DNA from: Posidoniimonas polymericola
GTDB lineage: Bacteria; Planctomycetota; Planctomycetia; Pirellulales; Lacipirellulaceae
Direction of reading: 5' to 3'
Length of the DNA stretch: 64,000 nt
NCBI RefSeq assembly: GCF_007859935.1
Contig: NZ_SJPO01000005.1
Coordinates: 372,001-436,000, forward strand
Positions 14,110 to 39,350 of the stretch are shown here, piece after piece. The notes beneath the pieces are model-generated. The model did no database searches. It was not told the DNA's origin and worked only from the letters and a program-made list of their open reading frames with translations. A program made the translations under genes and the position numbers. Within the stretch, counting starts at the first letter, position 1; each line of letters begins with the position of its first letter.

Positions 14110-14263
14110 CCACAAAGAGGCACAAGAAGACACAAAAAAAGAGAGGGCAATCCGCCAACTAAGGCACGCGTCGCCCCCGTTCTTTTTCGTGACCTTTCGT
14201 GACCTTTCGTGACCTTTCGTGACCTTTCGTGACCTTTCGTGACCTTTCGTGCCTTTTCTTGGC
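14110..14263. repeat. 10-bp tandem repeat array within an imperfect inverted repeat
   Basis: Six perfect copies of GACCTTTCGT run from 14191 to 14250, with degenerate copies on both flanks. The whole is bracketed by GCCACAAAGAGGCAC (14110-14124) and GTGCCTTTTCTTGGC (14249-14263), which are inverted copies matching at 12 of 15 positions. The purine-rich strand (CACAAAGAGGCACAAGAAG) resembles a repeat seen between genes in many environmental bacteria. It lies 50 bp upstream of the ABC permease start, and the period equals about one DNA helical turn. It is not a CRISPR array, because there are no spacers. Confidence 0.85.
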
Positions 14264-14313
14264 CATCCCATAACCAGCCGTTTCGGTTCCATAACCACAA
14301 ACCAACAACCGCC

Positions 14314-15441
14314 ATGCGATTCTCTCGACTTGTCACCGCCAATCTGATGGGCCGCCCGGTCCGCTCGCTGCTGACGCTGACCGGCGTCGCCGTAGCGGTC
14401 GGCGCGGTGGTCGCGTTGGTCGGCGTGTCCGACGGGTTCGAGAAGTCGCTGCTCGACGCGTACGAGAGCCGCGGCGTCGACCTCTTGGTGCTGCAGGCCG
14501 GCAAGGTGCAGCAGACCATGAGCGTGCTGCCTGAGTCGCTGGGCGACGAGCTCGCCAAGCTCGACGGCATCGAGTCGTTTGCCCCCGGCCTGACCGACGT
14601 CGTCTCGCTCGGCGACGAGGGCCTGATGGGCGTCACGATCCAGGCGTGGCCGCGGGACAGCCCGCTGCTCGACCAGTTCCAGCTGATCGAGGGCGGCCCG
14701 CTCTCGGAGGCCGGGCCCAAGACCCTGCTGATCGGCCAGTCGCTCTCCACCGCGCTCAAGAAAAAGGCCGGCGACACCATCGAGGTCTACGAGGGCGAGC
14801 CGTTCACCGTCGCCGGCGTGTACGAGTCGTACAACGTGTTCGAGAACGGCGCGATCGTGATGCCGCTGGCCGACCTGCAGGACCTAATGTTCCGCGAGGG
14901 CGAGGTCACCGCCTACACGATCATCGGCAAGCAGCACGACCGGCCGTTCCTCGAGGAACTCGCCGCCCAGATCCGCGCGCTGCAGCCCGGCCTCGAGGTC
15001 GCCCAGACCCGCGACTACGCCGAGAACGCCCCCGAGCTGAAGACCGCCCGGGCGATCGCGTGGCTCACCAGCAGCATCGCCCTGGTCGTCGGCGCGGTCG
15101 GCATCCTCAACACGATGCTGATGGCGGTGTTCGAGCGGACCAAAGAGATCGCGATGATGCGGGCGGTCGGCTGGCGGCGGAGCCGCGTGATGCGTCTGGT
15201 CATGAGCGAGGCCCTGCTGCTGGCGTTCGGCGGCGCCGTGCTAGGCACCCTCGGCGCGATCGTGCTCTTGCGGCTGCTGGCCCAAACCCCCTCCGCCGGC
15301 CGCATCGTCAGCGGCGACATCTCGGGCGAGGTCGTGCTGCAGGGCTTTGTGGTCGCGATGCTGCTGGGGCTGTTGGGCGGGCTGTACCCGGCCTACCGCG
15401 CGGCGCGGCTGACACCGATTGAAGGGTTGCGGCACGAGTAG
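14314..15441 (+). CDS. ABC transporter permease, MacB/FtsX family
   Basis: 375 residues from the ATG at 14314. The N-terminal membrane helix ('LLTLTGVAVAVGAVVALVGV') is followed by an extracytoplasmic MacB-PCD-like domain (about 45-245). The C-terminal FtsX domain has three helices ('WLTSSIALVVGAVGILNTML', 'LMAFGGAVLGTLGAIVLL'-type, and 'GFVVAMLLGLLGGLYPAYRA'). The phrases 'FERTKEIAMMRAVGWRR' and 'YPAYRAARLTPIEGLRHE' are diagnostic of the family. Such permeases work with a separate ATPase in lipoprotein or peptide export; no ATPase gene lies beside it in this window, so its partner must be elsewhere. The start lies just after the 10-bp repeat array. Confidence 0.93.
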   Translation: MRFSRLVTANLMGRPVRSLLTLTGVAVAVGAVVALVGVSDGFEKSLLDAYESRGVDLLVLQAGKVQQTMSVLPESLGDELAKLDGIESFAPGLTDVVSLGDEGLMGVTIQAWPRDSPLLDQFQLIEGGPLSEAGPKTLLIGQSLSTALKKKAGDTIEVYEGEPFTVAGVYESYNVFENGAIVMPLADLQDLMFREGEVTAYTIIGKQHDRPFLEELAAQIRALQPGLEVAQTRDYAENAPELKTARAIAWLTSSIALVVGAVGILNTMLMAVFERTKEIAMMRAVGWRRSRVMRLVMSEALLLAFGGAVLGTLGAIVLLRLLAQTPSAGRIVSGDISGEVVLQGFVVAMLLGLLGGLYPAYRAARLTPIEGLRHE

Positions 15442-15537
15442 AGGGCGGTAGCTTTTCTCCGTAGTAGAATGAGCTAGGTACCGCCACCGCGTTGGTTTGG
15501 CCAGCCAACAACCTCCGGCAGAGTTTGGAACACTCTT

Positions 15538-16461
15538 TTGATACCTTTCTCCGTCACGATCGTCGATCGCCGCAAGGCTGATCAATTCGAGCCGCTCGGT
15601 AGCAAGCCGAAATTCTGGTTCCGCGACGGCGAGCGTCGGCTGATGTTCAAGGCGGACGACCGAGGAACCGGAGAGGACTGGGCCGAGGTCGTCGCATGCG
15701 AATTGTGCAAGCTGGTCGGCCTACCGCACGTCCATTACGATCTAGCGGCCGAAGGTGCAGGCGACCAGACAAGCCTCCCGGGCGTGATATGCGAGAACAT
15801 GGCGCCTCCACCCAAGTCATTGGTGCTTGGCAACCAGTTGCTTCTGGCTGCAGACGGTACCTATCCGATGGAACAGCGATTCAAGGTCAGTCAACACACG
15901 GTCGAAATGGTCGCCAAGTGCTTGTCGACGCTTTGGCCTCCCGAAGAAGACCTCTGCAAACGCTGCCCCAGTCTAAACCGCGGGAACGCTCTGGACTTCT
16001 TTGTGGGCTATGCCCTCTTGGACGCCTGGATTGCCAATCAGGATCGACATCACGAGAACTGGGCCGCCGTCTGGACTGGTGAACGAATGCGGCTGGCGCC
16101 GACTTTCGATCACGGAGCAGCCCTTGCGAGAAACCTCACCGACAGCGAGCGTCGCGAGCGACTGTCCACGAGGGACCGCAACCGTACGATCAAGGCGTTC
16201 GCGCGTCGGGCCCGGTCGGCCTTCTACGCCAACGAGACCGATAAGAAGGCCCTTTCCACGCTCGACGCTTTCCTTGCCTTTGGAATCCTCTCCCCTAAAG
16301 CTAGTAACGCTTGGCTCGAGCGGGTATTGGCCGTTGGGACCAATGAGTTGTCAGCTATACTTGACCGAGTACCAAGTAGTCGGATCTCTGATGTAGGCCG
16401 CGAGTTCACACTGGCCCTGTTGCTGGAGAACCAGCAACGGCTGAGGGAAGCCAACCCATGA
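15538..16461 (+). CDS. HipA-like (PI3/4-kinase fold) protein kinase
   Basis: 307 residues from a TTG start at 15538, with GGAA about 8 nt upstream. The ATP-binding lysine is likely in 'RRLMFKADDRGTGEDWAEVV' (about residue 39), followed by 'CELCKLVGLPHVHYDLA'. The catalytic loop 'ANQDRHHENWAAVW' (about 165-178, with Asp, Arg, His and Asn in place) and the metal-binding 'LAPTFDHGAAL' match the HipA/CtkA-like kinase group, so it looks active. It lacks the HipB-type antitoxin neighbour; instead its stop overlaps the start of a HIRAN protein gene by 4 bp (ATGA). Base composition is lower in GC than the surroundings, which suggests horizontal acquisition. A toxin, stress or defence role is an inference. 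Confidence 0.82.
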   Translation: MIPFSVTIVDRRKADQFEPLGSKPKFWFRDGERRLMFKADDRGTGEDWAEVVACELCKLVGLPHVHYDLAAEGAGDQTSLPGVICENMAPPPKSLVLGNQLLLAADGTYPMEQRFKVSQHTVEMVAKCLSTLWPPEEDLCKRCPSLNRGNALDFFVGYALLDAWIANQDRHHENWAAVWTGERMRLAPTFDHGAALARNLTDSERRERLSTRDRNRTIKAFARRARSAFYANETDKKALSTLDAFLAFGILSPKASNAWLERVLAVGTNELSAILDRVPSSRISDVGREFTLALLLENQQRLREANP

Positions 16462-17213
16462 ATGCACTATTTGTCGCGTGGCGACCGAAAAAAGCGAGCA
16501 GCGGCTGGCGCCCGGTCGGCCGGCTAATCTATGAAAATGGCCTCTACCGATTCTGCTACACCCAGGGAGCACGGCAGGAGGGATTCCGGCCATTCGCCGG
16601 AATGGAGCTACTCGATCGCGTGTATGAATCGGAGTCCCTATTCCCAATCTTCGCCAACCGCTTACTTCCATCATCACGCCCGGAGTATGAGGAATACCTA
16701 CGTTGGAGCGGTTTCGATCCAGCTCACCCCCCAGAGCCAATTGTTGTACTCGGCGTGACTGAGGGCATTCGAAAGACAGACGCTGTCGAGGTATTTCCAT
16801 GCCCAACCCCTGATACTGAAGGATGCTACCTCAATCGCTTCTTTCTCCACGGAATCCGTTGGATGGATCATTTGGCGTCCGAGCGTTTGGAGACGGTACG
16901 TCCAGGCGATCGCTTGTACCTAATGCTTGATCTGCAGAATCATTCCGATCCACAAGCCGTCGCGGTGCGAACAGAGCACCCCAGCGCTATGGTGGGCTAC
17001 GTTCCACGCTACCTCGCCAGAGATGTATGGTCGCTAATGCGTGAGTGTGAGATTGATTGGATCGAGCTCTCTGTCGAACGAGTCAACCTGCGAGCACCCA
17101 CGCAGAACCGCCTACTGTGCCGAATGAAGGCGTGTTGGCCAGATGGCTTCCAGCCGTGCGACGGCGAGGAGTTCGTTCCCATTCCGGCGGGCGTGACTGC
17201 GCGGTGCGGCTAG
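16458..17213 (+). CDS. HIRAN-domain protein paired with HipA-like kinase
   Basis: 251 residues. The C-terminal half (about 124-235) shows HIRAN features: 'NRFFLHGIRWMDHL', 'GDRLYLMLDLQNHSDPQAVA' and 'MVGYVPRYLARDV'. The HIRAN fold, known from HLTF, binds DNA 3' ends; stand-alone bacterial versions occur beside kinases and repair genes. The N-terminal half ('WRPVGRLIYENGLYRFCYTQ', 'FRPFAGMELLDRVYESESLFP') resembles the HipA N-terminal subdomain, so the kinase and this protein may be a split and expanded HipA-like unit. The ATGA overlap with the kinase gene implies coupled translation. GC content in sampled lines is about 50-58%, against about 65% in flanking genes. Confidence 0.75.
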   Translation: MNALFVAWRPKKASSGWRPVGRLIYENGLYRFCYTQGARQEGFRPFAGMELLDRVYESESLFPIFANRLLPSSRPEYEEYLRWSGFDPAHPPEPIVVLGVTEGIRKTDAVEVFPCPTPDTEGCYLNRFFLHGIRWMDHLASERLETVRPGDRLYLMLDLQNHSDPQAVAVRTEHPSAMVGYVPRYLARDVWSLMRECEIDWIELSVERVNLRAPTQNRLLCRMKACWPDGFQPCDGEEFVPIPAGVTARCG

Positions 17214-18159: not shown

Positions 18160-21100
18160 CTACGAGGCCTCAACCCGCTCGAGCTCGGCCTTCACCAGCG
18201 CGGCGAGGGCATCGACCTGCGGGGCGACCATCATCTGGGTGTGGTCGCTGGGCACCTCGAGCACGCGGACCAACTCGGTGAGCGGGCCCCAGCCGAGTTG
18301 GGGGTCGTCGAACAGCTGGTTGGTCTTGGTCTGCTCGCCGGCGCGGAACAGGGTCACCGGGCCGGGGTAGCTCTCGGCCTGGTGCTTGTGCACCGCGGTG
18401 ACGTTGTTCTGGAACACGCTAAAGATGTGCTGGCTGGCGGCGAGCTGGGCCGGGTCGACCAGGCCGGCCTTGGCGGCCCGCTCGGTGAAGAACGCGACCT
18501 GATCCTCGGGCGACAGTCCGCGGATCTCGGCGAGCGGGGCGTGGTCGCTCTCGGGGAACAGGGCCTCGAGCAGCGGCAGCAGGTCCTCCTCGCCGAGCGA
18601 GCCCTCCGGCGGGATCGCGCCGGCGTCGAACAAGGCGACCAAGCCGACCTCGCCGCCTCCTTCGCGGAGCCGGCGGGCGACCTCGTAGGCGATGTTGCCG
18701 CCGATCGACCAACCACAGATGTGGTAGGGACCATGAGGACGCAGTGCTTGAATCGCCTCGGCATACGCGGCGGCCATCGAGGGCATGTCCTCGTGCGGAG
18801 GCCGCAGCCCGTCGACGCCGTGGGCCTGGACGCCGATCACCGGCCGCTCGCCGGCGAAGTGGGCGGCCAGCTCCTGGTAGCAGAACACGGCCCCGCCGGC
18901 GGGGTGCACGCAGAAGAGCGGAGCGGCGGCGCCCTCCTTCTGCAGCGGGATGAGCGTCATCGCGGCGGCGGCCTCGGCCGGCTCGCGGAGCAGCCGTGCA
19001 AGGTTCTCGACCGTCGGGTCCTGGAACAAGGCGGCCAGCGGCAACGCACGGCCGGCGCGGGCCTCGATCTCGGACATCACCTGCACGGCGAGCATCGAGT
19101 GCCCGCCGAGCTCGAAGAAGTCGTCCTCGGCGCCAACCGGCGAGACACCGAGCAGCTGCTCCCAGACCTCGGCGATCAGGCGTTCCTCGTCGTCGCGGGG
19201 CTCGGTGTAGCCGGTCGCCCAGGCGGGGCGGCCGCTGGGGGGCGGCGGCAGCGCGTCGCGGTCGATCTTGCCATTGGAGGTTTGCGGGAATGCATCCAAG
19301 ACAACAAACGCCGACGGCAGCATGTACTGCGGCAGCGACTCCGCCAGGCCAGCCCGCAGTTCGGGGGCGAGCCGGGCGAGCAGCTTCTGCTGCATCGGCT
19401 CGTTGGTGCAGCGGCTGAGTGGGCAGAGCGAGTCGGCATTGGGCGGCGGAACCGCCTTGCCGGGCAGCGTGTAGCGGACCTCGATCGTGTCGGGCTCGGC
19501 GCCCCACCGGACCTCGGTCTGGTATCCGTGCTCGGCGCCGAGGGCCCGCCACTGGTCGGGCGTCGGCTCGCTGGGGTGCTCGTGCCGGGCTTGCTTGAGT
19601 TCGGCGGTGGTCTGCGTTTCCGACTCGTCCCGCAGCCGACCCCACACCCGGGCGTCGGCGGCGACGCGTGGGTTGATGGCCGACTCGACGACCACCGCGG
19701 CGGGCTGCTTGCTCAACGCCTTGGCGACTGCTGCAAGGTCGGCCTGGCAGCGGACTGGATCAACACTTTCAGGAGGCTCATCGAACGAGAGCGTCACGTC
19801 GTAGCGGAAGCGGGTCAGCTCGTTGTCGGCGTCGCCCGGCTTGAGTTGGATCTGCACGCCGGAGAGCCGCGGCAGGTCGTCGCCGAGCCGCTCGAACAGG
19901 TCTGGGTCGATGAGCAGCTCTTCCTCGCGGCGGAGCTGGGCCTCGATACGGCCGAGCAGCTCGCGGCGGCTCAGCCGCGCGTCGGCCCGGGCGATCTCGA
20001 CCGAAGCGGCCAGCGCCTCGTGCAGCCGCAGGTTGCGGAAGTCGCCGAGGAACATCCGCCCGCCCGGCGCGACCAACTCCGCCGCGTCACGGATCACGCC
20101 CCGCAGGTAGTCGCCCGACGGGAAGTACTGAGCAACCGAGTTGCACACGATGGTGTCAAACGTATGCCCCGAAAGTTGACCAACCTGATCGGCGGTCATC
20201 TGCCCGAGCGTCACCTTGTCGGCCAGGCCGCGGTCGTCGACGACCCGCGCGAGCTGGTTGAGCGAGCGCTCGAGGAAGTCGACCCCGTGGTACGATTCGC
20301 AGCTCGGCGCCACCCGCAGCAGGATCAGTCCGGTGCCGCAGCCGATCTCGAGCACCCGCCGCGGCTTGTGACCGAGGATCTGGTTGGCGGCCGCCTCGGC
20401 CCAGGCCCGCATCTGGTCCTTGGGGATCGGCAGGCCGGTGTAGGTGCTGATCCAGCCGGTGGTGTCGAACTCGGTGTCGCGGAGGGCGCCGGCGGCGCGG
20501 TGCGAGCCCTCCATCAGCGACCGCCACGCCGCCACGTGGTTGGCCTCGCCCTGGTCGGCGGCCAGGCCCGCCTTGGCGGGCGTTACGTAGGCCACCAGCC
20601 GGTCCTCGCCCCGCGCGTCGGGCTTTACCGTGACAAACGCCTGATCGACCTGCGGCAATCGCTCGAGCGCCGCGGCGACCTCGCTCGGCTCGACACGGTA
20701 GCCACGCAGCTGCACCTGATCGTCCAGGCGGCCGAGGAACTCCAGCTCGCCGTCGGCCCGCCAGCGGCCGACGTCGCCCGTGCGGTACATTCTGGAGCCA
20801 TCGTCGGCAATCGGGTCGCGGACAAACTTGGCGGCGGTCTGCTCGGGCTGGTTCAGGTAGCCGACCGCCACCCCGGCGCCGCCGATGCAGATCTCGCCCG
20901 CCACGCCGATCGGGACTTGTCGCAAATTCTTGTCGAGCACGTACGCCCGCATGTTGGCCATCGGCGGGCCGATCGGCGGCAGGCCGGTGAGCGGCTCGCG
21001 CAACACGTGCATCGAAACGCCAACGGTCGCCTCGGTAGGGCCGTAGCCGTTGAGCATCCGCCGTCCCGGCAGCCAGCGGCGGGCGAGCTCGGTGGTGAGC

Positions 21101-23376
21101 GTGTCGCCGCCGGTCGAGATGGTCTTGAGCGCAGGAAACGAGTCGGGGTCGAGCGTCGCGAGCAGGGCCGGCGGGAACTTGGCGATCGTCGCCGACGACT
21201 CTTGCAGCAGCCGAGTCAACGCGGTTGGGTCGAGCACTTGCTGCCGCGAGGCGACGATCATCGTAGCGCCGGTCGCCAGCGGCAGGAACGACTCCGACAA
21301 ACCACCATCGAACGACGGCGACATGACGTGCAGCACGCGGTCGCCGGCCGTGACGCCGAGCAGTCTGGCTTGGGCCCGCACAAAGTTCACGATGCTGCGG
21401 TGCTGGACCTGAACCCCCTTGGGGACGCCGGTCGACCCGGAGGTGTAGATGATGTAAGCGAGGTCATCCGGGCTGACTTCGGGCGCGGCGAAATCTTTAC
21501 CGACCCCGAGTTCGACCAGTCCGGTGACCGATTGGCTGTCGATCGGCGGGTCGGATACCTCTCCAAGGATCAGCTTCGCCCGCGTGTCGTCGGTGACGAA
21601 GCGGATCCGCTGCGGCCCCGCGTGCGGATCAACTGGCACGTAAACCGCGCCGGCGGTCATCGCGGCCAGCATCGCCGTGACCGAGTCGAACGAGCGGTCG
21701 AGCGCGACTATCACCGCGTCACCCCGCTGAACTCCCAGCGACTGCAACCCCGCGGCGGCGTGGTTGACGCGCTCGGCGAGCGCCCGCCAGGTCACCTCGT
21801 TTCCGCCGTCCAAGATCGCGGTTGCTTCGGGCCGGGCGTCGGCGGCGGATTGTTGGAACAGCTCGTGCGCTATCAGGGGGCCAACGAGAGGCGTGTGGGT
21901 CTCATTGAACGAAGCCAGCAGCCGACGCTCGCTGTCGGCAAGCAGCTCGAGCTCGTCGATCGCCGCCGTGGGCCGAGCGAGCGCGTCGCTCAGCAGTGTC
22001 TGGAACCCCGCGGCGAAGCGTTCGATGGTCGCCGGCTCGAACAGCGAGGTGCGGTACTCGATCTGCCCAGCCCAGCCCTCGTCGTCCCGCCAAAAGAACA
22101 GCGTGAGATCGTACTTGGCGGTTCCGTTGTCGACCAGCAGCGGCTCGACCGACAGGCCCTCGCCGGCGGCGAAGTCGCGGGGCGGGTTCTGCACCACCAG
22201 CGCAGTCTGGAACAACGCCGCGTGGCTCTGGTCACGCTCGGGGGCGACCGCTTCAATGAGCTGGTCGAACGGCAGGTCCTGGTGTGCGAACGCGTCGAGC
22301 GATTCGGCCCGGACCCGCTCGACGAGTTGATCAAAGCTCGGCTCGCCCGAAAGGTCGCCGCGGACAGCGAGTGTGTTGACGAAGAACCCGATCAGCCGCT
22401 CAAGCTCCGAACGGCTGCGGCCGGCGACCACCGTGCCGACCAAGAGGTCCTGCTGGCCGGTCATGCGGGCGAGCCACGCTTGGTAGGCCGCCATGAGGAC
22501 CATGAACGGCGTCGCCTGATGGCGGTCGGCAGTTGCCTGCAGTGCGGCGGAGCTCGTATCGGAGAGCCGGAACGGGAGAACGGCGCCGTCAAAGTCTTGC
22601 ACCGCTCCCCGGGCGTGGTCGGCAGGCAGCTCGAGCAGGGGCGGCGCGTCGGCCAGCTTCGACTTCCAGTAGCTGACGAGCGTCGCCCGCCGAGAGTCGT
22701 CCAAACTGGTCCGCTGCCAGACGGCGTAGTCGGAGTACTGGATCGGCAGCGGCGCCGCTGGCTCGCTGCCAGCCCGCGCTACCTCGTAGCCGGTGGCCAG
22801 CTCGTTGAGCATCACCCACATCGACCACCCGTCGGAGACGATATGGTGCATCACCAAGAGCACGATCTGCTCGGCGTCGCTCAACTCCAGCATGACACAC
22901 CGCAGCAGCGGCGGGCGGGCCAGGTCGAACGGCACACGGGCCTCCTCACGCAGCCGGGCGTCGAGCGCGGCCCGGTCACCGGCGAGCGATCGCGCGTCGA
23001 TGTACTCGGGAGCGATGGCGACCCGCTCGGCGACGCTCCGCTCGGGGCGCCCGTCGCGCAGGTGGTACGAGTAGCGCAAGGTCTCGTGCTGGGCGCACAG
23101 CGCCGCCAGGCTGGCGGCGAACGCGCCGCGGTCGAGCGGACCGGTGACCCGGGCCGCCAACGGCATGTTGTAGAACGGGTGGTTTGGCTCGAGCTTGTCG
23201 AGCAGCCAGAGCCGCCGCTCGGCGAACGACAGCTCGGCCGCCCGGTCCGGCGGCGCCAGCGGGATCCGCGCAGCCTCGGCCGCCGCGTCGCGACGCTTAA
23301 GCAACAGCTTCTCGAGCGCCGCCCGCTTCGTTGGCGAGAGCGATCGCAGCCCCTCCGTGGCGCCGCCATTGGCCAT
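18160..23376 (-). CDS. NRPS module C-A-MT-PCP-TE (terminal module)
   Basis: 1738 residues. Domains in order: condensation (active site 'MHHIVSDGWS', about residue 179), adenylation ('YTSGSTGVPKG' about 647, 'NGYGPTEATVG', 'YRTGDVGRW'), a SAM-dependent methyltransferase ('VLEIGCGTGLILL', about 1010) inserted in the C-terminal part of the A domain, the remaining A10 motif ('TSNGKIDRDALP'), a carrier domain ('FFELGGHSMLA', Ser about 1425), and a type I thioesterase ('GWSIGG' about 1557, His in 'SDHTQMM'). All catalytic motifs look intact. The ten specificity residues read by eye are D-G-S-K-S-G-G-V-G-K, which I cannot match to a known substrate. The start is 2 bp after the monooxygenase stop, so translation is coupled. 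It adds and probably methylates the last residue, then releases the product. Confidence 0.95.
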   Translation of the reverse strand: MANGGATEGLRSLSPTKRAALEKLLLKRRDAAAEAARIPLAPPDRAAELSFAERRLWLLDKLEPNHPFYNMPLAARVTGPLDRGAFAASLAALCAQHETLRYSYHLRDGRPERSVAERVAIAPEYIDARSLAGDRAALDARLREEARVPFDLARPPLLRCVMLELSDAEQIVLLVMHHIVSDGWSMWVMLNELATGYEVARAGSEPAAPLPIQYSDYAVWQRTSLDDSRRATLVSYWKSKLADAPPLLELPADHARGAVQDFDGAVLPFRLSDTSSAALQATADRHQATPFMVLMAAYQAWLARMTGQQDLLVGTVVAGRSRSELERLIGFFVNTLAVRGDLSGEPSFDQLVERVRAESLDAFAHQDLPFDQLIEAVAPERDQSHAALFQTALVVQNPPRDFAAGEGLSVEPLLVDNGTAKYDLTLFFWRDDEGWAGQIEYRTSLFEPATIERFAAGFQTLLSDALARPTAAIDELELLADSERRLLASFNETHTPLVGPLIAHELFQQSAADARPEATAILDGGNEVTWRALAERVNHAAAGLQSLGVQRGDAVIVALDRSFDSVTAMLAAMTAGAVYVPVDPHAGPQRIRFVTDDTRAKLILGEVSDPPIDSQSVTGLVELGVGKDFAAPEVSPDDLAYIIYTSGSTGVPKGVQVQHRSIVNFVRAQARLLGVTAGDRVLHVMSPSFDGGLSESFLPLATGATMIVASRQQVLDPTALTRLLQESSATIAKFPPALLATLDPDSFPALKTISTGGDTLTTELARRWLPGRRMLNGYGPTEATVGVSMHVLREPLTGLPPIGPPMANMRAYVLDKNLRQVPIGVAGEICIGGAGVAVGYLNQPEQTAAKFVRDPIADDGSRMYRTGDVGRWRADGELEFLGRLDDQVQLRGYRVEPSEVAAALERLPQVDQAFVTVKPDARGEDRLVAYVTPAKAGLAADQGEANHVAAWRSLMEGSHRAAGALRDTEFDTTGWISTYTGLPIPKDQMRAWAEAAANQILGHKPRRVLEIGCGTGLILLRVAPSCESYHGVDFLERSLNQLARVVDDRGLADKVTLGQMTADQVGQLSGHTFDTIVCNSVAQYFPSGDYLRGVIRDAAELVAPGGRMFLGDFRNLRLHEALAASVEIARADARLSRRELLGRIEAQLRREEELLIDPDLFERLGDDLPRLSGVQIQLKPGDADNELTRFRYDVTLSFDEPPESVDPVRCQADLAAVAKALSKQPAAVVVESAINPRVAADARVWGRLRDESETQTTAELKQARHEHPSEPTPDQWRALGAEHGYQTEVRWGAEPDTIEVRYTLPGKAVPPPNADSLCPLSRCTNEPMQQKLLARLAPELRAGLAESLPQYMLPSAFVVLDAFPQTSNGKIDRDALPPPPSGRPAWATGYTEPRDDEERLIAEVWEQLLGVSPVGAEDDFFELGGHSMLAVQVMSEIEARAGRALPLAALFQDPTVENLARLLREPAEAAAAMTLIPLQKEGAAAPLFCVHPAGGAVFCYQELAAHFAGERPVIGVQAHGVDGLRPPHEDMPSMAAAYAEAIQALRPHGPYHICGWSIGGNIAYEVARRLREGGGEVGLVALFDAGAIPPEGSLGEEDLLPLLEALFPESDHAPLAEIRGLSPEDQVAFFTERAAKAGLVDPAQLAASQHIFSVFQNNVTAVHKHQAESYPGPVTLFRAGEQTKTNQLFDDPQLGWGPLTELVRVLEVPSDHTQMMVAPQVDALAALVKAELERVEAS

Positions 23377-23378
23377 CC

Positions 23379-25028
23379 CTACATGGCCCCCATGGCGTAC
23401 GACTGCTGGGCGAGCTGCCCTTCAAGGAAGCTCACCAGCTGCTCGCGAACCGTGTGCTGGAACATGGTTGGGTCGTCCTGCCCATGCAGGCCAAGCTTGC
23501 GGATCAACGAGCGGGAGCCGCAGTGGGCATCGGTCCGCCAGTCGTTCTCCAGCGACTCGGAGATGTGGTGCTCGGCCACCAACTGCCCACGCGAGTACTG
23601 CCGCACCCGCGGGTGCAGGTAGACGTCGTTGTAGGCGCGGGTCGGGTCGGGCTCGCGGTTGACGGCCAGCACGTCGTCCTGGGTGTCGCCGTACTCCATG
23701 GTCACCACGAAGTAGTTCTCCGACTCGGCGAAGCAGCTCTCCTGGAGGTAGTCGACGTTGAGGGTCTCGTAGTAGCGGGCCTTGTCGTTGTCGACAACGA
23801 TCAGGTCGGCCAGGAAGCCTGGCTGCAGCATGATGCTGCTGTCGCGGCTGACCTGGGAGATGATCTTGTCGGAGATCGCCCCGGGGTCCCGCGCTAGCGC
23901 GACCGACGGCCAGTCGCGACCCTCGTAGCGTGCGGCCAGGATCGAAGCCAGCGACTTGATGTTCGACCGGAAGCCGTGCAGCACATTGGACATGGTCTTG
24001 TGCTTGTCCCGCATCTGCATCAGCGTGCCGGCGTAGAACAGGTGCGGCAGGTTGGTCGACTCCCACGCGCTGGTCATCTTCGGCAGGCGGCCGCACTCGG
24101 TGCTCTCCGGTTTGCAGCTGGCCGGGAACATGTTGTGGTTCCACTTAAAGCCGGTGCAGACCAGCACGCGGTCGTAGGCGAGCTGCGCCTTCTGACCACC
24201 GGCGTGCGAGAAAGTCAGGTCCACGACGTACTCGCCGTCCCGCTTCTCGATGCGGTCGATGTTGGCGTCGAGCAACGAGTTTTGCCCTTTTAGCAGGTAG
24301 GTATCGAGGAAGTCGTTGTTGACCGCCCGCAGGTGGCCGACGTAGTGCGACTTCCACGCCAGCTTCAGCGGGTTGGGGCTGCAGACGTGCGTCACCCGGG
24401 TGGCGCCGCACAGGTGGTTGGCGGTCTCGAAGGCAGAGTTGCCCTTGCCGAGGATCAGCACCCGCTGGTTCTCAAAATCCACGGGATCGATTGACATGTC
24501 GGCGTAAGACTCGGTGGTCTCGATGCCGGGGATGTTCGGCTCCCAAGGCTCCCACATGCCGGTCGCCATGATCAGCGCTCGGCACGAGTACCGCATGCCG
24601 TCCTCGTCGGCGACCTCGAAGTTCGGCCCGTCGTGGCAGCGGGTGATGTCCGCGACACGGGTCTTGTAGCGGATCCGCAGGCCCATCTTGGCGGCGAAGT
24701 CCTGCAGGTACTTGGCGTACAGCCGGGCGCTGGGGAAGTACTCCTTCGAGTACTTGGTGAAGGCCATCTCCTCGTCTTCGCAGAACAGCGAGTTCCAGTC
24801 GTAGCGGAGCTGGGTCTCGCGGTCGGTGTAGCCGGTGTGGACCTTGTTGATCGACAGCAGCCCATCGTGCCGAGGGAACTTCTCGAAGAAGCCGCCGGGG
24901 CGTTCCCGCGACTCGAGCACCATGTAGTTGCGCCCGGCGCGGTCGAGGAAGTAGGCGAGCTGCAAACCGGCCGGGCCGGCGCCAACGATCAGGTAATCGA
25001 CGTGGGTAGATCCATTCATAATTCTCAT
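23379..25028 (-). CDS. FAD-dependent monooxygenase (FOXRED2-like) of the NRPS cluster
   Basis: 549 residues. The FAD-binding Rossmann motif is at the N-terminus ('YLIVGAGPAGLQLAYFLDRA'), with a second nucleotide-binding site 'VLILGKGNSAFETANHL' (about residues 185-201) for NADPH. 'RALIMATGMWEPWEPNIPGI' is typical of flavin-containing monooxygenases, and the overall sequence resembles the FOXRED2 group. A C-terminal extension of about 150 residues is of unknown role. It sits between the two NRPS genes, 108 bp after the first and 2 bp before the second, so it very likely oxidises an enzyme-bound or released intermediate. The site of oxidation cannot be told. Confidence 0.88.
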   Translation of the reverse strand: MRIMNGSTHVDYLIVGAGPAGLQLAYFLDRAGRNYMVLESRERPGGFFEKFPRHDGLLSINKVHTGYTDRETQLRYDWNSLFCEDEEMAFTKYSKEYFPSARLYAKYLQDFAAKMGLRIRYKTRVADITRCHDGPNFEVADEDGMRYSCRALIMATGMWEPWEPNIPGIETTESYADMSIDPVDFENQRVLILGKGNSAFETANHLCGATRVTHVCSPNPLKLAWKSHYVGHLRAVNNDFLDTYLLKGQNSLLDANIDRIEKRDGEYVVDLTFSHAGGQKAQLAYDRVLVCTGFKWNHNMFPASCKPESTECGRLPKMTSAWESTNLPHLFYAGTLMQMRDKHKTMSNVLHGFRSNIKSLASILAARYEGRDWPSVALARDPGAISDKIISQVSRDSSIMLQPGFLADLIVVDNDKARYYETLNVDYLQESCFAESENYFVVTMEYGDTQDDVLAVNREPDPTRAYNDVYLHPRVRQYSRGQLVAEHHISESLENDWRTDAHCGSRSLIRKLGLHGQDDPTMFQHTVREQLVSFLEGQLAQQSYAMGAM

Positions 25029-25136
25029 CTCTCGTTGAGGTCTGCGGTCTGATCGCCGCGGGCCATGCTTAACGGTTTGGTTTGAGTGCCTGTCGTATTC
25101 GGCGCCGCTGGCTTCCGCGGCGGGTTTGTGCTTGGG

Positions 25137-28100
25137 TCAATCCCCTGTTCCGAGTCCCTCTAGAAACGCGACCGCTTCTTCGTCGGACATCGCCTCGATC
25201 TGGGCGAGCAGCTCGGGTTCGGTCAGATCGGCATCGACTACCTGCTGAGCGAGGATCAACTCAGCCCAGTGGGCGATGGTCGGCAGGCGATAGACCTCCC
25301 GCAGGTCGAGCTCAACGCCCAGGTGCTCGTGGATCCTCACCGTCAGCTGCATCACCGACAGCGAGTGCCCGCCGAGCTCGAAGAAGTTTTCGTGGACGCC
25401 CACCTCCTCGAGCCGTAGCACCTCGCGCCACCAGCCGGCCAGCCGCTCCTCGAGCGGCGTGCTCGGCGCGACACGCTCGGCCGACCGAGCCAGCAGGCAG
25501 CCCTCGGGTTTCGGCAGTCGCTTGCGGTCGAGCTTGCCGCTGCCATTGCGTGGCAGCGCCTCGTCGATCGACACGAAGGCGGACGGAAGCATATACTCCG
25601 GCAGCGACTCGGCCAGCCAACGACGCAGCTCTGCCGGGGAGAGTTCGGACCCGCCCGCGTCAACGAAGTACGCGGCCAACGCGGCGCCGAGCGGGTCGTC
25701 AACCGTGACGACCGCCGCCTCGGCCACGCCGGGGTGCTCGCAGAGATTGCGTTCAATTTCACCGAGCTCAATGCGGTGGCCGCGGACCTTGACCTGCGTG
25801 TCCGCCCGCCCGCCGAACTCCAGCCGCCCGTCGGAACGCCAGCGGACCAGGTCGCCCGTCAGGTAGACCCGGGTCGGCCCGCCGTTTAGCTCGATCGTAG
25901 GGAAGCGGGCGGCCGTGAGCTCTTCCTGCTCGTAATAGCCGTCGGCCAGCCCGGCGCCGCCGATCGCCAATTCGCCCCACCCGCCGGGCGGGACCAGCCG
26001 CTGGCGGCTGTCGAGCAGGTAGCACTGCGTGTTGTCGATCGGGCGGCCGATCGACACCCGCTCGCCGACGTCGGCGATCTCGTCGATCGTCGACCAGATG
26101 GTGGTCTCGGTCGGTCCGTAGACGTTCCAAAGTCGACCGGCGTCGGCCGCGAGTTCGCGTGCGAGGTCCGGCGTCAGCTCTTCGCCGCCCGCTAGCAGCC
26201 GCTGCCTGCTCGTTGGCCGCCAACCGGTCGCCAGCAGCATGCGGTAGGTCGACGGGGTGCCCTGCACCAGTGTGACGTTCGCATCATTGATGAGTCGGCC
26301 GAGCCGCCCCCCATCGCCGACGGTCGCCGAGTCGGCCAGCACTACCGTCGCGCCGGCAGCCAGCGGCAGGAACAACTCGAGCACCGAGATGTCGAACGAA
26401 ATCGTGGTCGCGGCCAGCACTCGATCGGCCGGAACGATACTCAGGTCGCGGCCGAACGAGCGGACGAAGTTGGCGACCGCGCGGTGCGGCACGACAACGC
26501 CCTTCGGGTTGCCGGTCGAGCCGGAGGTATAGATAACGTAGGCGGCGTCGGCCGCTTGAGGTTCTCGTCGTAGCGCCGGCTTGCCCGCGCCCGCTGCCAG
26601 CAGCTCTGGCAGCGTGACTACCTTGCCGGCGCCGCCCGGGGCGTCGGCGGCGAGCTCGTGGTCGGCAATCAGCAGCGCCGGCGTGCAGTCCTCGACCATC
26701 CGGCCGAGCCGTGCGGGCGGGTAGCTGGGGTCGAGCGGCACGTAGGCGGCCCCCACCTTCCAGACGCCGAGCATCGTGGCAAGCGTGTCGACACCACGGG
26801 TCAGCAGCAGACCCACTCGGTCGCCACGCCGCACGCCCAGGGCGGCAAGCCCCGCGGTGATCTCATCGGCGCGGGTGCTGAGCTGCCCGTAGGTTTGGGC
26901 ATCGCCGCTACACTCGACGGCCACCGCCGCAGGCGAATAGGCCGCGTGCCGGGCGAAGGACGCCAGTAGGTGCTCTGCCGGCGCGTCGTCGGTGCGCCCC
27001 TTGCCCGCAGTGATCAGCTTACGCCGCTGCTCCGGGCTGACTACCTCGAGTCTCGACAAGGTGGCCGCAGGGGCCGCACAGACCGAGTCCAACAGCTGGC
27101 GGTAACCCTCGGCAAGGCGTTCGACAAACTCGCTCGGAAGCAGCTGCGGGTCGTACAGCAGGCGGACGTCGGCGCCACGCCCAGAGGCGTCCACAACCAC
27201 CGTCAAATCGTACACGCCCAGGCCGCGGTAGTCGGTCGCCGCGTTGACGATTCGTGCGCCATCGAAATCGGGGCGTGAGGAAAGCGGGCTCTCGAACAGG
27301 AAGAACACCTGGGTCAGCGGCATCCGTCCCGGAACGCGATCGGCGTTTGCCGCGGCCAGGATCTGCTCCCAAGGGACGCCGGCGTGCGCGAGGTCGGCCA
27401 GCACGTTGTCGCGGAGCTCGGCGAGGAACTCGTCGTACGTCTGGTCGCCGCCGACCCGTGCGAGGATCGGCGCGGCGTGCATAAAGCAGCCGAGCGTGTC
27501 GCGGGCCTCGGCCGCGTCGCGTCCCGCCTGGGCGACGCCGACGACTACCTCATTGTCGCCGCTGAACCGCCCCAACAGGACCTGCAACGCCGACAGGTAG
27601 ACAGCAAACGGCGTGGCCGAGCAGCGGGTCGCCAGCCGCGTGACCGCCGCGGTTTGCTCGGCCGAAAGGGAGAGCGTGTGACGCTCAATCGATCGGGGGT
27701 CGGTCGCCGCCTGGCCCGTGACCAGCGGCAGGTTAATGGCGGATGGCGCGTCGGCGAGTCGTCCGGCCCAGTATTCGGCGTTTCCGCCCGACGGGGAGGG
27801 GCGATCCTGATTCGCTAAGTAATCCCAGTAATCGAACCGGCCGGCCGGCAAATCGCCGCCAGAGTACAGGGCCGCCAGCTCCTGCGTCAGCGGCTCGAAC
27901 GCCACGCCGTCACAGATCAGGTGATGCATCACCAGCACTAGCAGGTGGCGGTCCGGCGCGAGCGGCGCGACTCCCGCCCTGGCGAGCGGAGCCGCGTCAA
28001 GCTCAAACGGGCGCCAGACGAAGTCGAGGTTGCTGGCCCAATCGACCGGGATCGCTGGCGGCTGGGCCGGCGGGGCGATCTCTTCGAGCAGGAGCTCTGC

Positions 28101-30398
28101 CGTGGTGTGGAGCGTTTGCCGCGGCTCGCCGTCCACGGTCGTGAACGAGGTGCGGAGCATCTGCCGCCGCTCGACGAGCTCTCCGAGCGCCGCGGCAAGG
28201 CGTTCGCGGTCCAGCGGGCCGTTGAGCTCCAGCACCATCGGCACGTTCGCGCCCCCCGGCAGTCCAAGCTGCTCGAGCATCCACATCCGCTGCTGAGGCT
28301 CGGTAAGCGGCTGCGGTTGGGCAAGGAACGCGGGGGAAGCCTTTTGGAATCCGCGGGCAGCGTTTTCACTTGCCTGGTCGACAACCGCAGCAAAGCCGGC
28401 GAGTGTCGAGTGCGCGAACAGCTCGCTAGCGGCGATCGTCTTGCCGGTCTTCGCGGCGACGTCCTGCAGCAGCTGGATGATCTGCAGCGACTGACCGCCG
28501 AGGGCGAAAAAGCTGTCCTCGCGCGACACGCTTTCTACGTCCAGCAGCTCTTGCCACAGCTCGGATAGCCACGACTCGGTCGGCGTCGCCGGCGGTGCGT
28601 TCGACGTGACTGCGACCGACTCTTGCTTGTCACCCTGCCCTGCCTCCCACGCGTAGACGGCCGTCAGGATGCGCGACTCGTACTCGGGCCAGCACTGCGA
28701 GCGGCGGGTCTTGCCGCTGGAGGTCTTGGGCAGTTCGCCGACCGGTAGCAACACCACGGCGTGCGGCTCTTGGAGCGTCTCCTCGAGCACGACCGAGCGG
28801 ACGATGTCGCACAGCGCGGGCAGGTCCTGACGCTTGGGACGCTGGACCTCGTGGAACACGACCAGCCGCTCTTCGCCTTCAAGGTCGAGCGACGCGACCG
28901 CGCCGCCGTCGGCCTTGAAGGCCTCGTGCCGCTGCTGGATGGCGAGCTCGATGTCCTGTGGGTAGTAGTTGCGGCCGCCGAGGATGACGGTCTCTTTCCG
29001 CCTGCCAACCACAAACAGCTCGCCCGCGTCGAGGAAGCCGAGGTCCCCGGTGCGGAGGAAACCTTGCTCGCCGGTCGACAGCACCGCGTCGAAGGCAGTC
29101 GAGGTCTGCTCGGGGTTGCGCCAGTACCCTGCCGCGACGCCTGGGCTGCGGACCCAGATCTCGCCGACGCCGTCGGTCGGGCGGCGGGTCTGGGGGTCGA
29201 CGATCCGCAGGTCGATCTCTGGCCCGGGCGGGCCACAGCCAACCAGTCGCCGAATCGGCTCGGCCTTGCCGTTGCGGGGCACAACCGCCGACTCGGCCAT
29301 GTCGCGGGCCTTGTACTCCCGCTCGAGCGGGGGCTTGGTCAGCGGGCCGACGCTCACCATCAGCGTGGTCTCGGCCATGCCGTAGGCCGGTACGAAGGCC
29401 TCGCGGCGGAAGCCGTACGGCTCGAAGCGTTCGCAGAAGCGGTCGAGGGTCTCGCTGCGGACCGGCTCAGCGCCCGACACCGCGACCTGCCAGCTGCTGA
29501 GGTCGAGGCCCTCGCAGTCCTCGTCGGCGATCTTGCGGGCGCACAGCTCGTAGCCGAAGTTGGGCGCCGCGGAGGTGGTGGCGCCGTACTCGCTGATCGT
29601 CTGCAACCACGACACCGGACGCCGCACGAAGTCGAGCGGCGACATCAGCACCGTCCGACGGCCCGCGAACAGCGGCAGGAATACCCCGCCGATGAGCCCC
29701 AGGTCATGGTACGGTGGGAGCCAGAACGTGGCGACCGCGTCGGGCACGTCGAGCAGCTGCTCCATCGCCCGCAAGTTGTACTGCAGGTTGGCGTACGTGA
29801 TCGCGACCCCGCGGGGAGAGCCAGTTGTCCCCGAGGTGTACTGCAGCAGGGCCAGGTCGGACGCCGCTGGGTTGAACGGCCGCCACGCGTCGGCGGCGTC
29901 ATCGGCCAGGTCCTCAATCGCGATCGCGCCAGCTGGGCAGGTCTGGCGGAGCAGGCTGGTCTCGCTGCCGACCCACTGGCGGCTGCTCACCAACAGCTGG
30001 CACTCGGCGTTCTTGAAGATCGCCTGCAGCCGCGGCAGCGTGCGGGCGATGCGGAATGGGTCGGGCGGGTAGACCGGCACGGCGACCGCGCCGGCGAAGA
30101 AGCAGCCAAACAGCGTGGCGATGTAGTCGAGCCCTGGTTCCAACACGACCAGCACCCGCTGGCCCACGGGGCCGCGCTGCTGGAGCTCGGCCGCGATCGC
30201 CCGGGCGCGTCGTTCGAGCCCACCGTACGAAAAGGTTGCCGGCTGCTCGGCGTCGCCGCTCAGGAAGGTGTAGGCCGACTCTTTCGCCTGGTTCTGCGCG
30301 CGCCACTGGGCGACCTCGACCAGGGTCGAGAGCCCCCAATGCGTCGCCCCTTGGGGGGCGCGCACAGCCGGGTTTTGGATTGCCGAACCTGGGTTCAT
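25137..30398 (-). CDS. FAAL-PCP-C-A(Gly)-PCP lipopeptide synthetase
   Basis: 1753 residues. It opens with a fatty acyl-AMP ligase (about 1-590: 'QYTSGTTGSPRGV', 'FWLPPYHDLGLIGGVFLPLF', 'GRRKETVILGGRNYYPQDIE'), then a carrier domain ('FFALGGQSLQ', Ser about 637), a condensation domain ('MHHLICDG', about 828), an adenylation domain ('YTSGSTGNPKG', about 1294) and a second carrier ('FFELGGHSLS', Ser about 1678). A C-terminal tail ('SDEEAVAFLEGLG') resembles a docking element. The specificity residues read D-I-L-Q-L-G-V-I-W-K, the glycine-type code. FAAL activates a free fatty acid as acyl-AMP and loads it on the first carrier; the C domain joins it to glycine. This is the first gene of a three-gene minus-strand operon. 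Confidence 0.95.
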   Translation of the reverse strand: MNPGSAIQNPAVRAPQGATHWGLSTLVEVAQWRAQNQAKESAYTFLSGDAEQPATFSYGGLERRARAIAAELQQRGPVGQRVLVVLEPGLDYIATLFGCFFAGAVAVPVYPPDPFRIARTLPRLQAIFKNAECQLLVSSRQWVGSETSLLRQTCPAGAIAIEDLADDAADAWRPFNPAASDLALLQYTSGTTGSPRGVAITYANLQYNLRAMEQLLDVPDAVATFWLPPYHDLGLIGGVFLPLFAGRRTVLMSPLDFVRRPVSWLQTISEYGATTSAAPNFGYELCARKIADEDCEGLDLSSWQVAVSGAEPVRSETLDRFCERFEPYGFRREAFVPAYGMAETTLMVSVGPLTKPPLEREYKARDMAESAVVPRNGKAEPIRRLVGCGPPGPEIDLRIVDPQTRRPTDGVGEIWVRSPGVAAGYWRNPEQTSTAFDAVLSTGEQGFLRTGDLGFLDAGELFVVGRRKETVILGGRNYYPQDIELAIQQRHEAFKADGGAVASLDLEGEERLVVFHEVQRPKRQDLPALCDIVRSVVLEETLQEPHAVVLLPVGELPKTSSGKTRRSQCWPEYESRILTAVYAWEAGQGDKQESVAVTSNAPPATPTESWLSELWQELLDVESVSREDSFFALGGQSLQIIQLLQDVAAKTGKTIAASELFAHSTLAGFAAVVDQASENAARGFQKASPAFLAQPQPLTEPQQRMWMLEQLGLPGGANVPMVLELNGPLDRERLAAALGELVERRQMLRTSFTTVDGEPRQTLHTTAELLLEEIAPPAQPPAIPVDWASNLDFVWRPFELDAAPLARAGVAPLAPDRHLLVLVMHHLICDGVAFEPLTQELAALYSGGDLPAGRFDYWDYLANQDRPSPSGGNAEYWAGRLADAPSAINLPLVTGQAATDPRSIERHTLSLSAEQTAAVTRLATRCSATPFAVYLSALQVLLGRFSGDNEVVVGVAQAGRDAAEARDTLGCFMHAAPILARVGGDQTYDEFLAELRDNVLADLAHAGVPWEQILAAANADRVPGRMPLTQVFFLFESPLSSRPDFDGARIVNAATDYRGLGVYDLTVVVDASGRGADVRLLYDPQLLPSEFVERLAEGYRQLLDSVCAAPAATLSRLEVVSPEQRRKLITAGKGRTDDAPAEHLLASFARHAAYSPAAVAVECSGDAQTYGQLSTRADEITAGLAALGVRRGDRVGLLLTRGVDTLATMLGVWKVGAAYVPLDPSYPPARLGRMVEDCTPALLIADHELAADAPGGAGKVVTLPELLAAGAGKPALRREPQAADAAYVIYTSGSTGNPKGVVVPHRAVANFVRSFGRDLSIVPADRVLAATTISFDISVLELFLPLAAGATVVLADSATVGDGGRLGRLINDANVTLVQGTPSTYRMLLATGWRPTSRQRLLAGGEELTPDLARELAADAGRLWNVYGPTETTIWSTIDEIADVGERVSIGRPIDNTQCYLLDSRQRLVPPGGWGELAIGGAGLADGYYEQEELTAARFPTIELNGGPTRVYLTGDLVRWRSDGRLEFGGRADTQVKVRGHRIELGEIERNLCEHPGVAEAAVVTVDDPLGAALAAYFVDAGGSELSPAELRRWLAESLPEYMLPSAFVSIDEALPRNGSGKLDRKRLPKPEGCLLARSAERVAPSTPLEERLAGWWREVLRLEEVGVHENFFELGGHSLSVMQLTVRIHEHLGVELDLREVYRLPTIAHWAELILAQQVVDADLTEPELLAQIEAMSDEEAVAFLEGLGTGD

Positions 30399-30794: not shown

Positions 30795-32015
30795 ATGCTT
30801 GTATCCGGCCAGCTGCTACTGAATGACCTGCCGGACCGCGCGCGGACCGCTCCGGGTTATGTCCGGATCGAAGGGGACCAAATTGCCGAGGTGGTGACCG
30901 GCGAGGCCCCGGCCGAGTGCGATGCCGGGGGTCCGGCCTGCCTGATCTGCCCGGGGTTCATCGACACCCACCTGCACCTGCCGCAGTTCGATATGCAAGG
31001 CGCCCACGGGCTGCCGCTGCTGGAATGGCTCGAGCGCTCGACCTTTCCCGACGAGCGAAAGTGGGCCGACGCCGACTACGCCGCGGCCATGGCGGAGCGG
31101 GCGATGCGTCGATTGTTCTCGCACGGCACCACCGGCATCTGCGCCTACTCAACCGTGCACGCCGACGCGACCCGCGCCGCACTCCAGGCCGCCTGCCAGC
31201 TTGGCATACGGGGCGTGATTGGCCAGTCGCTGATGGACCGCAACGCCCCCGACGACCTGTGCCGCCCCGCGGACCAGCTGATCGACGAAACCACCTCGCT
31301 GCTAGACGACTTCCCCCCCGGCGGGCGGGTGGCGGCCGCGGTGACGCCGCGGTTCGCGATCTCCTGCACCGACGAGCTGCTGGCCGCCGCCGGGCGGCTC
31401 GCCGCCGAGCGTGACGCAACCGTGCAATCGCACCTCGCCGAGACCATCCCCGAGTGCGAGTGGGCGGCCGACCTGTTCGGCGGGGCCCGGTACGTCGACA
31501 TCTACCGCGACGCCGGCCTGCTGACCGAGCGATCGATCTACGGCCACTGCATCTACCTCAGCGCCGAAGACCGCCGGACGATGGCGGACCGTGGCGCGCT
31601 GGCCGCGCACTGCCCGACCGCTAATTCGTTCCTCCGCGCCGGCGCGATGGACCGCCGGGCGACCCTGAGCGAGGGGGTGACCCTGACGCTCGGCAGCGAT
31701 ATTGGCGCCGGTTACGAGGCGAGCATGGTCCGTGTCGGCCGGGCCATGATCGAGACCGCCTCGTCCATCGGCGAGTCGTTCCCGGTCGCGGCCGAGGCGT
31801 GGCGCCAGATCACCGCCGGCAACGCGGCCGCTTTAGGGTGGCAAGACGCGGGCCACTTGCGGGTCGGGGCCCCGGCCGACCTGGTGCTGATCGAACCAAG
31901 CGTCCCCTGGCTGGGGGCGAACGTCGACCCGCTGTCGATGCTGATGTTCGCCTGGGACGACCGCTGGCTGACCCACTGCTGGGCGCGGGGCGAGCTCGCC
32001 TACTGCCGCGGTTAG
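30795..32015 (+). CDS. guaD: Guanine deaminase
   Basis: 406 residues of the amidohydrolase superfamily. Metal ligands lie in 'PGFIDTHLHLPQFDM' (HxH, about residue 57), 'QSHLAET' (His about 215), 'YGHCIYLS' (His) and 'GSDIGAG' (Asp). 'AAVTPRFAISCTDELL' and 'LAAHCPTANSFLRAG' are typical of guanine deaminases rather than of other cytosine or adenosine deaminases. It converts guanine to xanthine in purine salvage or catabolism. It is divergent from the NRPS operon with which it shares a 396-bp spacer. A functional link to that cluster is not suggested by its chemistry. Confidence 0.9.
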   Translation: MLVSGQLLLNDLPDRARTAPGYVRIEGDQIAEVVTGEAPAECDAGGPACLICPGFIDTHLHLPQFDMQGAHGLPLLEWLERSTFPDERKWADADYAAAMAERAMRRLFSHGTTGICAYSTVHADATRAALQAACQLGIRGVIGQSLMDRNAPDDLCRPADQLIDETTSLLDDFPPGGRVAAAVTPRFAISCTDELLAAAGRLAAERDATVQSHLAETIPECEWAADLFGGARYVDIYRDAGLLTERSIYGHCIYLSAEDRRTMADRGALAAHCPTANSFLRAGAMDRRATLSEGVTLTLGSDIGAGYEASMVRVGRAMIETASSIGESFPVAAEAWRQITAGNAAALGWQDAGHLRVGAPADLVLIEPSVPWLGANVDPLSMLMFAWDDRWLTHCWARGELAYCRG

Positions 32016-39067: not shown

Positions 39068-39350
39068 ATCGAAGAATCCCAGGCAGGCGACACGAACGGG
39101 CAGAGCCGTTATTAGAATCACCCGCAAAGCCGCGGACAACGAGATTGTCTCAGCCGACAGCCAGCTTGTCGCCCGCAATCGGGAAATCGCACAGAGCGAT
39201 CCCGTCGCGAAGGGCGGCGCCGACGCCCCCCACGAATCGATCTGCGCTAACACGAGAGCGGGGCGCCAAGAATCGACCGCCCGCGTCCATTACGATGGAG
39301 ACCTGGCTAGCAACTCGACCACGACAAACCACAGCGATGGAGATCCATCA

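Follow-up and report, generated by a model that had tools for sequence, protein, structure and literature searches.

A compact planctomycete lipopeptide locus with a predicted N-acyl dipeptide product and an optional flavoprotein

NRPS lines that start with a fatty acyl-AMP ligase (FAAL) are an already known kind of pathway, as are methyltransferases carried between cores A8 and A9 of an adenylation (A) domain. In FAAL-initiated lipopeptide synthetases (e.g., that for puwainaphycin, PMC4219810), an acyl-AMP is loaded on a carrier and NRPS condensation follows, and the locus reported here is alike in this respect. There is precedent, too, for coupling an oxidising enzyme to a glycine module. 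In the accessible text of PMC12283262, a MOX domain is embedded in certain glycine modules, and DILQLGMIWK is given as the code of those that carry such a monooxygenase insert. DILQ-type codes are glycine codes, and the A-domain code found here is of the same type. Planctomycetes are likewise a source of N-acyl amino acids, namely the stieleriacines (accessible part of PMC12479983, where targeted deletion in the planctomycete Stieleria neptunia is also reported).

The DNA analyzed here, termed the window, is a stretch of 64,000 nucleotides from Posidoniimonas polymericola. It holds three adjoining genes for two synthetases and a flavoprotein. Judging from domain families and gene order, we consider it probable that these genes make a small N-acyl dipeptide and that the flavoprotein serves as an optional tailoring enzyme acting at the glycine stage.

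The three genes and their domains

The set occupies 12.2 kb of the minus strand, with open reading frames (ORFs) at 25137-30398, 23379-25028, and 18160-23376 and intergenic gaps of 108 bp and 2 bp. The first gene encodes a synthetase of 1753 aa (N1; recognized by Pfam and NCBIfam), in which Pfam finds two AMP-binding, one Condensation, and two PP-binding domains. The middle protein, of 549 aa, has a Pfam Pyr_redox_3 match and is a FAD/NAD(P) flavoprotein by Pfam, NCBIfam, PDB relatives, and its model. In the third product, a synthetase of 1738 aa (N2), Pfam reports Condensation, an AMP-binding domain split by methyltransferase families, PP-binding, and Thioesterase. Pfam and the ORFs agree with the domain order given in the preliminary description, namely FAAL-PCP-C-A-PCP and C-A-MT-PCP-TE synthetases on either side of a flavoprotein, and with the spacing of 108 bp and 2 bp given there.

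The first domain of N1 (28644..30338, minus strand, as are all domains below) has as its best solved relatives 7r7f (9.7e-135) and 3kxw (4.4e-117), which we take to be FAALs listed under other names in the search output. The fatty-acid--AMP ligases FadD23, FadD32, and FadD28 and the fatty acyl-adenylate ligase 3pbk come next, and entries named as CoA ligases or as A domains have clearly lower scores than the FAAL entries. NCBIfam fatty-acid--AMP ligase models match N1 below their cut-offs. By its sequence relatives, this domain is of the FAAL branch and is neither an ordinary CoA ligase nor an A domain, which bears out the FAAL start proposed earlier. It is followed in N1 by PCP1 (28344..28598; Pfam and the motif LGGQS), the condensation domain C1 (27015..28313; Pfam and HHLICDG), the adenylation domain A1 (25533..26957; aligned code DILQLGVIW, of glycine type), and PCP2 (25254..25445; Pfam and LGGHS), after which comes a short C-terminal tail.

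N2 begins with the condensation domain C2 (21916..23238; Pfam and HHIVSDG) and continues with the adenylation domain A2 up to core A8 (20560..21849; Pfam and the aligned code DGSKSGGVG). The methyltransferase (19477..20544; VLEIGCGTG) is inserted between A8 and A9, and the remainder of A2, comprising A9-A10, lies at 19252..19374. LRGYRVEPSE of A8 precedes the methyltransferase, and NGKIDR of A10 follows it. PCP3 (18988..19179; Pfam and LGGHS) and the thioesterase TE (18163..18921; Pfam, GWSIGG, and a late His in SDHTQM) complete the protein.

Motifs were aligned across 11 N1 and eight linked N2 sequences. In the window, every carrier, the two condensation domains, the methyltransferase, and the thioesterase have intact motifs, which upholds the earlier reading of a methyltransferase-bearing second module and release by a thioesterase. 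Loss of carrier or condensation residues had been proposed as one way to overturn the assembly line, and the alignment finds none lost in the window. PCP1 carries LGGxS in all 11 N1 proteins, and SAM motif I of the methyltransferase reads VLEIGCGTG in all eight linked N2 proteins. The C1 motif is HHxxxDG in the three N1 sequences of the host's own family and HHxxxDA in all eight from Pirellulaceae, where the last Gly is replaced while the second His and the Asp are kept.

Read on the alignment, all 15 N1 proteins have the A1 specificity code D-I-[L/C]-Q-x-G-[V/M]-[I/V]-W, a single one having C for L at position 239. From this DILQ-type code, glycine is firmly predicted as the A1 substrate, as the preliminary description had it. 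For A2, the code D-G-S-K-[S/L/A]-[G/A]-G-V-G is shared by 11/11 lines with the flavoprotein and by 1/7 without it (genome G742). Searches of the accessible literature with six variant strings of this code returned no paper containing them. Asp/Asn was considered for the A2 residue, here called X, but the Asp/Asn code DLTKVGHVGK, quoted in the accessible text of PMC12283262, is matched at just five of nine positions (including Lys 278, Val 330, and Gly 331). Because this is too few to call, X is left unnamed.

Several neighboring features were recorded. A divergent amidohydrolase gene (30795-32015, plus strand) lies upstream of the synthetase genes and occupies the same place in the genome of a congeneric relative, G392 (79%); it was not found in the examined stretches of the same-family genome G402, K23_9, or Rhodopirellula sallentina. 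Genes downstream of the set are convergent with it. Long plus-strand ORFs run opposite the set (e.g., 18241-23622), and the G+C content is 69%, at which antisense frames of this length are common. At 15538-17213 (plus strand), a HipA_C-like protein (27.8 bits, cut-off 30.5) precedes a HIRAN-domain protein, their ORFs overlapping by 4 bases. A phosphodiesterase domain fused to TPR repeats is encoded at 33629-35641 (minus strand), and close to it are genes for two PEP-CTERM proteins and for a matrixin-type protease (37592-39253). Elsewhere in the host genome, a further NRPS condensation domain lies within a 1399-aa frame (G000:C1:897259-898503), and the phosphopantetheinyl transferase family has two matches.

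Occurrence of the set and of lines without the flavoprotein

In a phylum sample of 392 genomes, the best flavoprotein match outside the host's own genome has an E of 3e-15 and 27% identity. Among 59 relatives, a true orthologue is present in three, namely the host, G392 (same genus, 88%), and G402 (same family, 59%), and 35 others have weak matches alone (E 5e-9 or worse). Across the 396 genomes of the order, an orthologue at E <= 1e-60 occurs in 11, which are those three and eight of another family. The eight include K23_9 (G598, CP036526.1) and R. sallentina SM41 (G724, NZ_ANOH01000020.1). NCBI taxonomy places R. sallentina in the family Pirellulaceae of the order Pirellulales, an order in common with the window's source, which supports the planctomycete host assumed earlier. 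The order-wide searches scored the best three (flavoprotein) or five (methyltransferase) candidates per genome, and absence is accordingly less firm in them than in the search of 59 relatives. A contig scan with N2 as the query recovered no relative, although relatives exist and the flavoprotein query recovered them.

The N2-type methyltransferase is present in all 11 flavoprotein-carrying genomes. A search of related genomes for the same three genes, as had been suggested, finds the complete set with its order kept in seven others (G392, G402, and five of the eight from the other family). In three genomes of one genus (g355), the N1 and flavoprotein genes lie side by side and N2 does not adjoin them; their N2 orthologue, full in length (49% over residues 8-1736), is found elsewhere on the same contig. 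All 11 genomes therefore keep all three proteins, and a two-gene pathway lacking the thioesterase in this genus is ruled out. Such separation fits a remark in the accessible part of PMC12479983 that planctomycete pathways are often not clustered. The gene order is nonrandom, because it recurs in seven other genomes and the first two genes adjoin in three more.

A MacB-like permease gene (MacB_PCD, FtsX; 14239-15441, plus strand) is convergent with the synthetase genes, and its closest copies adjoin the set in G392 (74%) and G402 (56%). Relatives with 37-55% identity also occur elsewhere. At E <= 1e-40, the permease is found in 13 of 59 genomes, 10 of which lack the flavoprotein, so its position may reflect plain synteny instead of a role as a dedicated exporter.

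The N2-type methyltransferase region is found in 23 of the order's 396 genomes, 11 with the flavoprotein and 12 without, and 10 of the latter 12 loci were examined. Four flavoprotein-less genomes have both synthetase halves, either as two genes (G742 and G521) or as one fused ORF (G700, 3635 aa; G443, 3590 aa). In a fifth line (G274), cut off at a contig end, one ORF likewise takes in the first A domain and continues with the N2 part. These natural N1-N2 fusions argue for a hand-over from N1 to N2, with FAAL-Gly first and X second, and the two complete ones uphold the assembly order in the preliminary description. The flavoprotein is absent from five lines. As these include several that are otherwise similar, we regard it as optional and outside the minimal line.

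For N1 (15 rows) and N2 (18 rows), trees made with FastTree only agree in placing the flavoprotein-containing lines in two clades, one per family, with the lines lacking it falling between them. G703, G435, and G631 (cut by a contig end or of other layout), along with G357 and G576, were left out. In a tree of 33 flavoprotein rows, from which the split R. sallentina protein was left out, the 10 assembly-line flavoproteins form one clade (support 100/100). A single gain with two or more later losses would account for this distribution, as would transfer between the two clades. A second, distant family copy (45%) occurs in a genome of genus g355 (L135; G679:C1:864277-868764), outside the clade of the set.

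The flavoprotein and its stage of action

The middle protein was initially called a monooxygenase. Its core (23916..25028), delimited by structure comparison and alignment, has the fold of both YpdA and bacterial FMO, and carries the FAD- and NADPH-type motifs GAGPAG and GKGNSAFE, whose columns are mostly invariant or nearly so, as in class B FMOs. The model (pLDDT 83.7) superposes on YpdA, a bacillithiol disulfide reductase (7a7b), with Z 25.8 over 312 aligned residues (rmsd 3.2) and on a bacterial FMO (4a9w) with Z 24.3 over 308 (rmsd 2.6; core residues 7-369). The FAD-NAD(P) core fold is common across the superfamily. Class B FMOs are marked by the fingerprint FxGxxxHxxxY/F in the linker before the NADPH motif, and this fingerprint is absent from the linker in 32/32 flavoprotein sequences; its regular expression matches elsewhere in 5/32 rows, near residue 332 of the window protein.

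We conclude from sequence and model that the middle protein is a FAD/NAD(P) oxidoreductase whose core fold suits a reductase about as well as a monooxygenase. The name "monooxygenase" was a guess and is not established, given that the YpdA match is about as good as that to FMO and the fingerprint is missing, and consequently an oxidised product is not established either. An alternative is that the protein is no oxygenase at all and instead works as an NADPH-dependent reductase or dehydrogenase, perhaps as a redox partner or as a desaturase that works on the acyl or peptide chain. The best Z score, that for YpdA, and the missing fingerprint speak for this alternative, as do sequence matches to YpdA and thioredoxin reductase models, which are below cut-off. 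However, Foldseek ranks bacterial FMO first, the best NCBIfam relative is ArsO-type (also below cut-off), and the best PDB relatives are Stenotrophomonas maltophilia monooxygenases. Furthermore, no CxxC pair is present in any of the 32 sequences. On this balance, a reductase seems unlikely, though it deserves serious consideration.

The C-terminal 178 residues of the flavoprotein (23382..23915), modelled alone with pLDDT 82.3, have no Foldseek match in the PDB at E <= 0.001 (best 0.56), which is not proof of a new fold. The protein presumably resembles FOXRED2/ERFAD of animals.

A scan of about 85,000 species returned 249 flavoprotein relatives, the best 80 of which were examined; by their titles, these come from seven phyla, and some are short contigs. 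Two of the 80 loci are full sets, four are other NRPS loci, 46 have an AMP-forming ligase without a condensation domain in the stretch examined, and 28 have neither. The four other NRPS loci are from Fulvivirga, Pseudoalteromonas luteoviolacea, Aliikangiella, and Tenacibaculum, and three of them contain a glycine-type A domain (DILQMGMVY, DILQLGMVW, and in the third an interrupted domain whose code ends in IQLGMIW and could not be aligned over its first letters). Glycine-type codes thus make up 3/10 A domains read in these loci versus 93/2051 in the survey (binomial P 0.009), an enrichment that is post hoc and small, with about one third of some 15 A-domain hits unread. Because the wider family is seldom found in NRPS loci (4/80 besides the two sets), the link to a glycine module may be a local one. 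In a few scanned loci from actinobacteria and Paraburkholderia (L039 13415-17941, L046 10013-14025, and L048 9995-13937), the flavoprotein gene adjoins genes for an acyl-AMP-forming ligase, a cytochrome P450, or an FMN-dependent dehydrogenase, which points to a further type of pathway; the Nonomuraea flavoprotein frame was taken as 14971-16545. A profile scan of five AMP-ligase neighbors left two without a match, perhaps because the frames were wrong.

We place the flavoprotein at the N1, or glycine, stage on two grounds: its gene remains next to N1 in the three genomes with a distant N2, and in G712, G694, and G758 its ORF overlaps the N1 end by 4 bases. As evidence for when the enzyme acts, such linkage to N1 is weak. 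The enzyme could instead be matched to X, because the A2 code differs in six of the seven flavoprotein-less lines, and it would then act on X while this is held on PCP3, or on the released lipodipeptide. The confinement of the DGSKxxGVG code to all 11 lines with the flavoprotein and one of seven without it fits such a role, as does the spacing in the window, where the gene is 2 bp from N2 versus 108 bp from N1. Nonetheless, G742 has the same A2 code without a flavoprotein, and both the 4-base overlaps and the genomes with a distant N2 tie the gene to N1. We therefore give action on X or on the released product a rather low probability and retain the glycine stage as the preferred reading.

A more specific proposal can be made with little confidence. 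The family may oxidise carrier- or CoA-bound acyl or aminoacyl thioesters in trans, and the member encoded here may oxidise (e.g., N-hydroxylate) glycyl-PCP2 to yield an N-acyl-N-hydroxyglycyl-(N-methyl-X) lipid with a metal-binding or signalling function. Retention or loss of a single gene would then decide, species by species, whether this oxidation takes place.

Proposed pathway and comparison with known systems

What the DNA shows directly is which domains are present, that their motifs are intact, and how the genes are ordered; from the enzyme families we infer the following steps. The FAAL would activate a free fatty acid as acyl-AMP and transfer it to give acyl-PCP1, A1 would load glycine to give glycyl-PCP2, and C1 would join the two into N-acylglycyl-PCP2. 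The flavoprotein, where present, would act on glycyl- or N-acylglycyl-PCP2 before hand-over to N2, most likely through a flavin-dependent oxidation of the nitrogen or the glycyl unit, as far as can be inferred. A2 would load X on PCP3, and the inserted methyltransferase would methylate the backbone nitrogen of this residue. After the chain passes from N1 to N2, C2 would form the second peptide bond, and TE would free N-acyl-glycyl-(N-methyl-X) as an acid or a cyclic product.

The closest solved relative of the methyltransferase is 5wmm (E 9e-45), with which it has the blocks NSVxQYFP, IDPD, and LKPG...NELTR in common. Methyltransferases inserted at this site include both backbone and side-chain types, and the enzyme might accordingly target the O, S, or C of a side chain. 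We take 5wmm to be the backbone N-methylating TioS, which makes side-chain methylation a doubtful prospect and backbone N-methylation the preferred reading. When residues 939-1378 of N2 (the methyltransferase and the end of A2) were compared with plasmid records, the best-covering ones had ~40% identity, and the best place stood at 60-80% identity in 41/156.

Compared with G392, the nearest relative found, dN/dS is 0.26, 0.22, and 0.29 for the three genes, which are therefore under purifying selection. The dS of the flavoprotein gene against this relative (L040) is 0.38, below its neighbors' 0.86 and 0.61, as could arise from codon constraint or recombination. In R. sallentina SM41, the flavoprotein frame (L052 9800-11553) consists of two overlapping ORFs, owing to either a sequencing error or a real break. 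That split frame might suggest a decayed or nonfunctional remnant, an idea we consider highly improbable and reject for the window, where the frames are open, the motifs intact, the dN/dS values 0.22-0.29, and the set kept in two families.

The locus is a compact and conserved lipodipeptide pathway, and there is no described planctomycete NRPS lipopeptide among the literature matches listed. Judged by title or the opening of the abstract, those matches likewise contain nothing on this cluster, on FOXRED2-like proteins encoded in gene clusters, or on a two-residue FAAL-Gly-X line with an optional separate flavoprotein, with subscription journals lying outside the search; a term search of PMC13126170 gave no matching passage. 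At 12.2 kb, the set is small enough for whole expression. Natural controls exist in the relatives that carry the flavoprotein, lack it, have a distant N2, or have N1 and N2 fused, and comparing extracts across them would reveal the reaction of a widespread flavoprotein family.

The set differs from FAAL-initiated synthetases of the puwainaphycin kind (PMC4219810) in having only two amino-acid modules with glycine first, an optional flavoprotein gene between the synthetase genes, and no PKS part. N2 shares its insertion site, sequence blocks, and order with the A domain of 5wmm, an A domain carrying an A8-A9 N-methyltransferase, but has a different A-domain code. Similarly, the flavoprotein has the same core fold as bacterial FMO and YpdA-type oxidoreductases (4a9w and 7a7b) across residues 7-369, yet it lacks the FMO fingerprint at the linker and has about 178 extra C-terminal residues without a solved match. 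Unlike the NRPS route proposed here, the formation of stieleriacines is ascribed to N-acyl amino acid synthases (accessible part of PMC12479983). Finally, the MOX domain in the glycine modules of PMC12283262, in its accessible text, sits inside the A domain and the glycine is terminal, whereas in this locus the oxidoreductase is a separate protein and the glycine would be internal.
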